Below, in pieces: positions 39,577 to 46,124 of a stretch of DNA of 58,519 nt. A model generated the notes under the pieces. The model had not been told where the DNA came from. It searched no databases and worked only from the letters and a program-made list of their open reading frames with translations. This stretch comes from Gammaproteobacteria bacterium (GTDB taxonomy: Bacteria; Pseudomonadota; Gammaproteobacteria; GRL18), in the NCBI GenBank assembly GCA_026196615.1, contig JAPHSW010000166.1:1-58519 (forward strand). The letters run 5' to 3'. The first letter of the stretch is position 1, and every line of letters starts with the position of its first letter. The translations under genes were made by a program, and so were the position numbers.

Positions 39577-40185
39577 TTGACCAAGCAATTGCAAATTATA
39601 GATGAAAACGCCATGACAGAGCTAGGTGCAAAGTTGGCAATGGTGTCAGTACCGGGAACAATTGTCTATCTTGATGGTGATTTAGGGGCAGGTAAAACAA
39701 CTCTGGTCAGAGGATTTCTTCGTTCACAGGGCTACTCTGGAGCGGTAAAAAGTCCGACATTTACGGTTGTGGAACCTTATACACTTGATAATAACAAATT
39801 TTATAATTACAATGAGTTAGAGGATGATCTTAAGCTAGATGGTGATAATAACTCTGTAACTCATTCTATAAGTAATAAAAATACTGAAAGTGACCGAGAG
39901 CAAATTGAATCTCAGGTACAAAGAGTTTACCATTTTGATCTTTATCGATTAGAAGATCCCGAAGAGCTTGAGTACATAGGGATTCGAGACTATCTGGATG
40001 GACATGCCATTGCTTTGGTTGAATGGCCAGAAAAAGGATATGGTGTTTTACCACAGGCTGATTTAATTATAAAAATAACTCATCAAAAACAGGGACGGAA
40101 GGTTGAATTACAGTCACACTCTGAAGTTGGGACGGTAATTGTTTCTAAATTAGTATCGAATGAGCGAAACAAAAGCTCTATTTAA
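39577..40185 (+). CDS. tsaE: tRNA threonylcarbamoyladenosine biosynthesis ATPase TsaE, with insertion
   Basis: This 202-residue protein is longer than the usual 150-160. The P-loop is DGDLGAGKTTLVRGF (residues 33-47), then KSPTFTVVEPY. An acidic, Asn/Ser-rich segment covers about residues 70-115. The conserved VYHFDLYRLEDPEELEYIGIRDYL and the C-terminal VEWPEKG follow. TsaE works with TsaB and TsaD to make t6A in ANN-reading tRNAs. The insertion is absent from usual TsaE and appears as a surface loop. The frame begins with TTG; a tiny upstream frame ends over it. amiB follows with overlap. Confidence 0.9.
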   Translation: MTKQLQIIDENAMTELGAKLAMVSVPGTIVYLDGDLGAGKTTLVRGFLRSQGYSGAVKSPTFTVVEPYTLDNNKFYNYNELEDDLKLDGDNNSVTHSISNKNTESDREQIESQVQRVYHFDLYRLEDPEELEYIGIRDYLDGHAIALVEWPEKGYGVLPQADLIIKITHQKQGRKVELQSHSEVGTVIVSKLVSNERNKSSI

Positions 40186-43081: not shown

Positions 43082-43093
43082 TTAAACATATTT

Positions 43094-43119
43094 ATTGGGT
43101 GTGATTTTTCACACCCAAT
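43094..43119. terminator. Perfect 11-bp hairpin after the VOC gene
   Basis: ATTGGGTGTGA pairs with TCACACCCAAT around a TTTT loop. It lies just after the VOC stop and before the stop of the convergent chemoreceptor gene. No U-run follows, so it may mainly be an mRNA end structure. Confidence 0.6.
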
Positions 43120-43194
43120 AGCAGTATGAAGCTATATATTCACCCGCAGCTATCTTATAACTGTTGTGGAGATACCAATTGATATCTCTAAATA

Positions 43195-44784
43195 TTATAC
43201 AGTAAATTGTCCTACTAAATTTCGTAACTGTACTCCAAGCTCGTTAAGTTCTTTACTTGATGCAGAAGTTTGTTCTGCACCTGAAGCAGTTTGTTCAGAG
43301 ACGGTCTGAATGTTACTGATGTTACGATTAACTTCTTCAGCAGTTGTTGCTTGTTGTTCGGCTGCAATCGCAATTTGAGTATTTAGTTGAAGAATATTGT
43401 CAACTGACTTATTAATTGCATCAAGTGATTTGCCGGCTTGTTCTGCCTGAGTCACTGTACTTTCAGTTTTCTCCTGACTTTTCTGCATGACTTCAACTGC
43501 TCTTCCAGCACCACCTTGAAGTGTATCGACTAAAGTTTCAATCTCTTTTGTGGATTCTTGTGTCCGTTGGGCAAGAGTTCGAACTTCATCAGCCACAACA
43601 GCAAAGCCTCGTCCCTGTTCGCCTGCACGAGCAGCTTCAATTGCGGCATTGAGTGCAAGAAGGTTGGTTTGCTCTGCAATATTTTTAATGACATCTAAAA
43701 CAGTACCAATATTTTCACTGTCATTTTTAAACTTTTCAATAACTTCGGCTGCATCCTGAACACCATTAGCCAAATCGTTAATGGCAATAATTGTTTGACT
43801 GACTACCTGGCTGCCATTTGTGGCTTCTTCATTACCTATTTCAGCGGAATCTGATGCGTGTTGTGCATTGGAAGCTACTTCGCTGACAGTAGAAGACATT
43901 TGATTCATTGCTGATGCAGCCTGAACAATATCACTTGATTGTTGCTTTACTCCTTTATTGGTTTGTTCAGTAACAGCTGAAAGCTGTTCAGCTGATGAAG
44001 CCAGTTGATCTGACTTTTGTATGACTTCTGAAACAATAGTGGACATATTATCAATCAATCGATTAAAGGCTGCAGCTAAAATACCGACTTCATCATTGGA
44101 TTTAATGTCGGCTCGTTGAGTGAGATCACCACTTTTTTCAATTGATTCTACAGTATTTCTCAAGCTATTAAGTGCGTTGCTGATGATGTTGGCAAGAAAC
44201 ATAGAAGCGCCTATACCAACGATTACCATGACAACCAATAATAAATAAATTGAGAAACTGACATTTTTATTTGATTGATGAACGGCTGAAACAATTTTTT
44301 CTTGCTCTTGTTTATGAATTTTATATTGTTCTTTTAAAGCATCTAATATTGTTGATGATGTTTTTATCGATTTATTCAGTAGTAAACTGCCTTCCATTTT
44401 TTCATCGTTGATGAAAGCAGCGGCCGCTTGTTTTATTTGCTTATTATATTTAATAAAGTCTGCTGATTTAGCTTTTATTTCAGGACTTGTTGTATTTTTA
44501 AAAAGACGTTCCAATTCTATAAATATTTTTTCACTTTGTTCTTTTTTATCATTTTGCAGAAGAATAAGAAATTCAGTGCTGGATAATCGAAACTCAATAA
44601 ACTTCTCTTGAAAGTCTGATAGTTTTTGTAAGGACTTAAAAGATTGTTCTTCTTCATGTAGTAGTTTCTGATTAAGGTTCAATTGCATCAAGGCATACAC
44701 TAAAACCATGAGCAGTATTATCAATAAGAGCCCATTACTTGCAAGAATTTTCTTTCGGATGGTATTAATTTTTAAGTAATTCAT
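43195..44784 (-). CDS. Methyl-accepting chemotaxis protein
   Basis: This is a 529-residue protein. Two membrane segments (about residues 13-33 and 180-205) enclose a helical periplasmic domain of about 145 residues, like the four-helix-bundle sensor. HAMP (about 205-260) and the cytoplasmic signalling domain follow, with the tip [35 protein letters not shown] (in parts). There is no C-terminal NWETF-type pentapeptide. It begins at the ATG after GGATAT rather than TTG four codons earlier. It lies 26 bases after the secreted repeat-protein gene, so the two are probably a receptor and a periplasmic partner. Confidence 0.92.
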
Positions 44785-44810
44785 TGTTATATCCAAAGTC
44801 TATTATGAAG

Positions 44811-45809
44811 TTAGAGGGTATTTATGAGTCGTTCAAGCATATAGTTGATATGTTTGACTACTTGATAAACATCAGAAGGGGTTTTACCTGTTGCTGGTTT
44901 GGCACTATTGGTTGTACTGTTGATATCCAAAGGTATTTTAAGAAGGTTTAATTCAGCTATTATAAATTGTGTTTGTAAAAAAACATCGATGGGTTTTATT
45001 TTTTTATATTCACTTAGTGATGGTATGGTAATTTGTGGAAGTTTATTATGCTGTCTTAGTATGTTTAACTTTTTGCGTACTTCAAATGATATTGTCATCA
45101 CATCACCTGGTTTTTTATTCATCTCCTGAGCAGAAATAACTGTCCCGTCAGGATGCATACCATAAATAGCCGTCATCAATAAACGCTTTTTTTGTTCCTG
45201 AGAATTATCAAATTTTTTTGATAATAATAATAGTGTATACTGCAAGTCTTCTTTAGCACGAATAATGTGCGAATAAACCTCGCTAGGACTTATTTTTTCT
45301 TTATCATTTAATCGGTTGAGTTGGTAATATAATTTAAAGAGTTCCTGATAAACGTCTGCTGGTGATTTTCCACTGTTAGTTTTCATTGAAAAATCAATAG
45401 TGTTGTTGTCATCCTTATAAATACCTTCCAAATTATTTATAACTAATTCAGTCAGATAATAAACATCAGTCGGAGTATATTTTATTGGAGTAGAAACAGG
45501 AAGTGGTGGAGGGGGACGATTATTTTTAATACTATAATGATAGAGTTCGTTAAGAACAGATACATGCAGTTCATACACATGCATTGGTTTGGCATCTTTT
45601 TCTTTTGAAGATGGTATCTGAAGATCAGTAATGTTTTTTGACTTCAGAAGCAAATCAAGAATTTGGTTAGAATATTCTACTCCAGAAAATACATCATTGG
45701 GTGAATATTTTTGTACTGCATAAACATGACTACCACAAAAAAAACTGAACAGTAATGACATTGTTATAATTGAGGCACATCGAAATAACTTAAGCTTAGG
45801 TGTTATCAT
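44811..45809 (-). CDS. Exported protein with eight P-x-[DEH]-V helical repeats
   Basis: This 332-residue protein has a signal peptide (ASIITMSLLFSFFCGSHVYA). I count eight copies of a short motif P-x-[D/E/H]-V at residues 37, 75, 113, 150, 175, 234, 273 and 311, mostly 37-39 apart. Each is followed by a helix of about 20 residues (such as PTDVYYLTELVINNLEGI). It looks like a helical repeat protein in the periplasm. I do not know a family that fits. It is upstream of and close to the chemoreceptor gene on the same strand (26 bases), which suggests that it binds a ligand and docks on the receptor, or is a periplasmic modulator. Confidence 0.75.
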   Translation of the reverse strand: MITPKLKLFRCASIITMSLLFSFFCGSHVYAVQKYSPNDVFSGVEYSNQILDLLLKSKNITDLQIPSSKEKDAKPMHVYELHVSVLNELYHYSIKNNRPPPPLPVSTPIKYTPTDVYYLTELVINNLEGIYKDDNNTIDFSMKTNSGKSPADVYQELFKLYYQLNRLNDKEKISPSEVYSHIIRAKEDLQYTLLLLSKKFDNSQEQKKRLLMTAIYGMHPDGTVISAQEMNKKPGDVMTISFEVRKKLNILRQHNKLPQITIPSLSEYKKIKPIDVFLQTQFIIAELNLLKIPLDINSTTNSAKPATGKTPSDVYQVVKHINYMLERLINTL

Positions 45810-46124
45810 TATTTGCTACCATATATTTAGAAAGAGTCATAAATAAGTTCATTATTTAATTATAAAATCCAACAAAAATTTATTTATTACTTTTATCGGA
45901 TGAATTGATAATTACTTTAATTCACACTTGTATTCAAACATATAAAAAATATAGTGTATGGATATAGGCTTATCAAGTTAACTAAAAGACTGTTTAAAAC
46001 ACCATAGAATTTTAAAGGTTATTTTTAACTGTGTAAGTCTTTGATAATAATGAATACAAATGATAACTTCTTCGTAGCGTCAAAAAAAATAAGTGAATTT
46101 TACTGTTCGAAAAATTATCAATTC
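45810..46124. other. AT-rich intergenic region
   Basis: This 315-base region lies between the repeat-protein start and the peroxiredoxin stop, both on the minus strand. I see no coding potential and no RNA gene. The repeat-protein promoter should be near 45830-45900. Confidence 0.5.

Follow-up and report, generated by a model that had tools for sequence, protein, structure and literature searches.

An uncatalogued family of exported helical proteins encoded beside bacterial membrane transducers

The repeat gene and its chemoreceptor

The window analyzed here is a stretch of 58,519 nucleotides from a gammaproteobacterium (contig JAPHSW010000166.1). It holds, on the reverse strand, a gene for a helical protein with eight sequence motifs and, directly downstream, a gene for a methyl-accepting chemotaxis protein (MCP; Table 1). 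A sequence-only reading of the window had placed the repeat gene 26 bases upstream of the chemoreceptor on the same strand, and we find the same arrangement; an alternative TTG start of the receptor at 44796 would shrink the gap to 14 bases. Beyond the receptor gene lies a terminator-like hairpin, and there is a promoter-like match upstream of the repeat gene, although such promoter-like matches are no commoner in this region than in shuffled sequence. Together, the two elements suggest that the genes probably form a bicistronic operon.

Table 1. Features of the repeat–receptor locus, in positions of the window
Feature	Position	Strand	Basis or remark
Promoter-like match 5' of repeat gene, 10/12	45948..45976	-	Consensus match only
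Gene for exported eight-motif helical protein, 332 aa	44811..45809	-	ORF, motifs, family profile matches
Apparent type I signal peptide (residues 1-31)	45717..45809	-	Hydropathy, A-x-A-like end; homologues alike
Module 1, residues 33-172, motifs at 37, 75, 113, 150	45294..45713	-	Aligns with module 2
Module 2, residues 173-332, motifs at 175, 234, 273, 311	44814..45293	-	Aligns with module 1
21-residue insert, residues 200-220	45150..45212	-	Private to window clade; makes 59-residue gap
26-base gap, repeat-gene stop to receptor ATG (44784)	44785..44810	-	Sequence
MCP gene, 529 aa from ATG	43195..44784	-	HAMP, MCPsignal, two TM segments
Predicted periplasmic four-helix-bundle sensor of receptor, about residues 32-178	44251..44691	-	AF2, Foldseek
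Terminator-like hairpin 3' of receptor gene, 12-bp stem	43093..43120	-	Consensus match only

The receptor has the features of an MCP, with matches to HAMP (1.5e-11) and MCPsignal (2.9e-47). Its periplasmic part is predicted by AF2, run on the first 230 residues, to be an up-down four-helix bundle, with pLDDT of about 90-96 over the bundle. Pfam 4HB_MCP_1 was not reached in this receptor and fell under the cut-off in the homologue at locus L050. The best Foldseek match of the sensor model is the ligand-binding domain of Vc1313 (probability 1.00 and target TM 0.68-0.75, with an E of only 0.014). Other relevant but weak matches (E at least 0.014) are PcaY_PP, NarQ and LytS-N of the XylFII-LytS complex, and the weak matches also include the QseE sensor in 9m08, the entry of the QseG-QseE complex. 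Binding to a periplasmic partner is known for LytS-N. The window receptor shares both its sensor fold and its HAMP-MCPsignal output with the four-helix-bundle chemoreceptors Tar, Vc1313 and PcaY_PP, but its sensor is only 12-13% identical to the matched Vc1313 structures and, unlike those receptors, it has a dedicated helical partner.

Elsewhere in the window, a TsaE-like open reading frame (39577-40185) contains an apparent acidic stretch of about 45 residues (NNKFYNYNELEDD to ESQVQR) before HFDLYR, which resembles an insertion.

A duplicated four-helix module in an uncatalogued family

The eight P-x-[DEH]-V motifs of the repeat protein lie exactly where they had been read, with spacings of 38, 38, 37, 25, 59, 39 and 38 residues; 100,000 composition shuffles of the protein gave a mean of 0.15 motifs and a maximum of 4. 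The description of the protein as exported also holds, as judged from its apparent signal peptide, with a hydrophobic stretch at about residues 8-31 and an end of V-Y-A|V (...HVYA). A lipobox is absent from this protein and from the other 51 aligned homologues, no other membrane anchor was seen in the 52 homologues inspected, and the mature window protein has no cysteine. The AF2 model of the window protein consists of helices only and is of low confidence overall (pLDDT 53.6, from a shallow three-sequence alignment); it begins a helix at all eight motif prolines, in agreement with the helix that had been read after each motif. Foldseek returned no usable match for this model, as expected because its confidence is low.

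Two lines of comparison indicate how the eight motifs are organized. In a profile comparison, residues 33-172 align with residues 171-332 over 138 columns (probability 99.8, E 7e-30). Among single units, the best matches are 1-5, 3-7 and 4-8 (92, 87 and 83%), and the best match of unit 2 is 2-6 (55%). By these alignments the window protein arose through tandem duplication of one module, which has four motifs and, as predicted, four helices. The spacing of about 38-39-38, then 24, then 38-39-39 residues persists throughout the 52 divergent aligned homologues, so that the gap of 24-25 residues is a conserved junction between modules. At the position of the window's 59-residue gap, the spacing is 59 in the five members of the window clade and 37-41 in the other 47; the window gap is an ordinary 38 residues plus a 21-residue insert. 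The suggestion that the irregular gaps of 25 and 59 mark shifted or degenerate units is thus not upheld, one being the junction and the other the clade-specific insert, and we also reject an open-ended array with degenerate units in favor of two copies of a fixed four-motif module. An hhalign comparison of the repeat modules with the window receptor's own sensor domain showed no homology (probability 0.2%). A separate set of paralogues of about 590-650 residues (L048, L068-L070, L143-L146) gives two tandem profile matches each, equivalent to four modules.

The family is uncatalogued by Pfam, NCBIfam and the PDB, although proteins of its proposed kind, accessory periplasmic input proteins, are already known. 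For the window protein, Pfam-A gave a best E of 0.07, under the cut-off, and NCBIfam gave no match; among homologues, no common family emerged from Pfam on 19 or NCBIfam on 52, and the NCBIfam matches of single homologues are attributed to chance, as each occurs in one of the 52 members. Profile searches of all PDB chains returned nothing below E 0.2, and the weak sequence matches above it (decorin-binding protein, azoreductase and nucleoporin, E 0.2-0.9) were likewise rejected as chance. The sequence-only reading had assigned the protein to no recognized family, and these searches found it no relative. No earlier description was found in the part of the literature covered, and one under another name may exist.

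Homologues were sought in relatives, then in the class, then in the phylum, using the window protein or its profile. By our own tally over these searches, 59 of the sampled genomes, from Gammaproteobacteria and other classes of Pseudomonadota, carry the family; many of the sampled genomes are fragmented assemblies. The family is present in 20 of 369 genomes sampled from the window's class and in 22 of 48 from the class of genome G393. Outside the five-member window clade, identity to the window protein in the 52-row alignment, which includes that clade, is 13-27%. A plasmid collection searched with the window protein gave no match, and viral contigs searched with the close-relative alignment and one homologue gave no relative.

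Recurrent pairing with membrane transducers

The neighborhoods of 66 homologous loci were read, two of which stop at a contig edge. In 61 of the remaining 64, or 62 of 65 counting the window, the repeat gene directly adjoins a gene for a membrane transducer on the same strand. For comparison, of 401 other genes at these loci, 13 have a gene with a transducer motif next downstream, a background drawn from loci that are themselves rich in signaling genes. The pair is therefore not restricted to the window, nor did any search return a known family unlinked to chemotaxis. The idea of a helical-repeat protein as a chemoreceptor partner is supported in that the pairing recurs throughout the family, and the partnership is broader than had been proposed, extending to hybrid histidine kinases and diguanylate cyclases.

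These three outputs were recognized by Pfam scans of representatives. For some other partners, the class rests only on a motif, on likeness of the sensor or on an incomplete gene; examples are L129 and L146, which run into contig ends, and L066, where the kinase domain lies in the next gene. Chemoreceptors are the partners at L055, L057, L058, L060, L147-L149, L151 and L157. Hybrid histidine kinases with a dCache-like sensor are found at L046, L048, L049, L052, L053, L054, L059, L067 and L124, hybrid kinases without such a sensor at L063 and L064, and diguanylate cyclases at L062 and L075. The gaps between repeat and transducer genes are mostly below 25 bp, and many of the gene pairs overlap. 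Gene order is reversed, with the receptor first, at L147, L148, L150 and L152. The clear homologues at L047 and L061 are exceptions, having no adjacent transducer, and the third exception is the weak homologue at L065 described below. No natural fusion of a repeat domain to a transducer was seen.

Several loci carry further genes nearby. At L046 (6803-10157, genome G006), two membrane proteins and a phosphonate-type solute-binding protein are encoded in the same direction upstream of the repeat–kinase pair; the solute-binding protein (PF12974, 5e-46), three genes upstream, is a possible extra input component. A membrane protein with a CHASE3 stretch and no kinase domain is encoded directly upstream of the pair at L124:4608-5651 and L127:3715-5571 and, by likeness, at L125 and L126; its gene overlaps the repeat gene or lies no more than 6 bp from it, and it may be a third component. 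Downstream of some repeat–kinase pairs are reading frames that appear by eye to be CheR- or CheB-like (L067:10988-12283, L132:400-1092, L154:628-2084), as if methylation enzymes were part of these kinase systems. Finally, a weak homologue of 193 residues at L065:6111-6689 (G181) has no adjoining receptor and lies inside an apparent chemotaxis cluster, among neighbors that look by eye CheD-, CheB-, CheW- and CheA-like.

The two genes also appear to have evolved together. On a quick tree of 52 repeat proteins, partner type changes 6 times, compared with 17.9 times with shuffled labels, a clustering of the sort that near-copies inflate; by this tree, the repeat subfamilies track partner type, with few switches. 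Copies from one genome follow the same pattern: those of G393 at L123 (kinase) and L150 (MCP) fall in the clades of their own partner types, not together, as do L122 and L152 of G399 and L066 and L073 of G004.

From the receptor side, searches of 24 genomes from the order and 274 from the class showed the window-type sensor domain in no more than 5, in each case directly beside a repeat gene. A dCache profile built from 11 partner sensors was run over 398 genomes. Every one of the best 21 matches, which score at least 216 bits, has a repeat gene next to it, and about half of the 21 lie outside the profile's own sequences; the next match, at 158 bits, is where other dCache kinases begin. The kinases beside the four-module paralogues score lower with this profile, at about 105 bits, and make up a sensor subgroup of their own.

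In four genomes of the genus (the window, L071, L072 and L073), both genes are homologous end to end, and the two-gene unit at L050 in G057 shows homology to the genus units in two long stretches. The 3-kb flanks of the unit in these five genomes are unrelated, save for about 300 bp upstream in one genome pair. By this comparison of unit and flanks, the repeat–receptor pair behaves as a two-gene cassette. The receptor gene at L050 is interrupted by a 262-bp element (L050:7984-8245; G057:C1:2634983-2635244), which has at least 41 copies at 95-100% identity in the complete genome of G057 and therefore looks like a small mobile, MITE-like element.

Possible roles of the repeat protein

Near-constant pairing with three types of receptor suggests that the family acts as a general helper, feeding outside signals into many kinds of receptor. 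The reading that we favor for the repeat protein, with a probability of roughly 65%, is that of an accessory co-receptor: a soluble protein of the periplasm that engages the adjoining transducer through its sensor domain. The protein would be exported through its cleavable signal peptide and would fold into two duplicated, all-helical four-helix modules, the P-x-D-V motifs starting the helices. Its target would be the sensor domain that its own transducer exposes outside the cytoplasm, in the window the predicted four-helix bundle of the chemoreceptor; there it would present or withhold a stimulus, thereby setting the output of the transducer; a ligand or a further binding protein may take part in this modulation. 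The analyses show the export signal (from sequence), the duplication, the conserved pairing, the cassette behavior and the match between subfamily and partner type; the direct contact, the stimulus and the direction of its effect are the elements that we infer. In this way one family would serve all three kinds of transducer, for the most part through a separate subfamily for each. Because the sensor folds of the partners differ (dCache, four-helix bundle and unassigned), a single binding mode cannot hold for all of them. On a broader proposition we would put even odds: that these proteins are a widespread, unnamed class of periplasmic co-receptor, indifferent to output, in which one helical family was recruited several times to the three kinds of transducer, its subfamilies recognizing unrelated sensor folds and its genes traveling in two-gene cassettes.

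By analogy, the repeat protein may work like partners in several known systems. Chemoreceptors and kinases can be stimulated by solute-binding proteins that bind to the sensor domain, as in MBP-Tar, PstS-CtpL and XylFII-LytS (PMC9864684). Like these binding proteins, the repeat protein is apparently soluble and periplasmic, is encoded apart from the receptor and is proposed to act through its extracytoplasmic sensor domain. They are, however, transporter subunits with a two-lobed alpha/beta fold, whereas the repeat protein is a dedicated receptor neighbor built of duplicated helical modules; the family gave no match to solute-binding families, and its low-confidence AF2 model contains helices only. 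QseG, which binds and activates QseE, belongs to an accessory lipoprotein system widespread in Pseudomonadota (PMC12691602). It is likewise a helper outside the cytoplasm, encoded beside a membrane kinase, but it is a lipoprotein of the outer membrane that serves a single type of kinase, whereas the repeat family lacks a lipobox and has three types of output. The PDB profile searches disclosed no relation to QseG under E 0.2, though 9m08 was in the PDB of that period. In the VtrA/VtrC and ToxR/ToxS co-component systems, the periplasmic input to a membrane signaling protein comes from the product of a neighboring gene (PMC9214523), and the two-gene cassette with the neighbor as input is shared, as proposed here. 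Their outputs are DNA-binding membrane proteins and their partner has a lipocalin-like domain, in contrast to the helical partner here, whose transducers are MCP, hybrid kinase and GGDEF proteins with no DNA-binding membrane regulator among them. Since the defining features of these three kinds are lacking, the repeat family is a member of none.

Other roles would also account for some of the data. The repeat protein could sense the state of the envelope or surface (the outer membrane, peptidoglycan or a large polymer) and relay it to the transducer in the manner of QseG or RcsF, instead of delivering a small ligand. The all-helical protein is not of the solute-binding type, its partners have several outputs, QseG-QseE is a precedent for a helical accessory protein (PMC12691602), and QseE itself is among the weak structural matches of the window sensor. 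But in 52 homologues there is neither a lipobox nor another anchor to hold the protein at a membrane, and chemoreceptor partners more often serve soluble chemicals, so that we regard this role as unlikely.

Another alternative, quite unlikely in our judgment, gives the repeat protein no part in signaling: as a chaperone or assembly factor in the periplasm, it would only stabilize its receptor. Such a factor would also be consistent with co-translation and strict pairing, and for ToxS and some other co-components a chaperone-like role has been suggested (PMC9214523). In the same genomes, however, the majority of chemoreceptors and dCache kinases manage without a repeat gene, and the dCache profile search turned up many kinases that have none beside them; the gene accompanies only one or a few receptors per genome, a distribution that a specific input suits better. 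Very improbable is an arrangement of shared regulation only, in which the repeat protein has its own envelope function and is co-expressed with the receptor but never contacts it. The lack of any fusion protein would be compatible with this, and direct binding is itself a matter of inference, but the association spans three output types and very divergent homologues, both gene orders occur, and the unit is found as a pair at unrelated sites.

Should the repeat protein act as an accessory co-receptor, the consequences would reach beyond this locus. Most bacterial receptors lack a known ligand. Were receptors of this type to take in their signal by way of a dedicated helical partner, ligand screens of isolated sensor domains would fail, and the partner would be the missing reagent. 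The family offers a clear and testable set of pairs and what would be a rare case of one input family feeding three outputs, in which the rules of sensor–partner specificity become directly testable.
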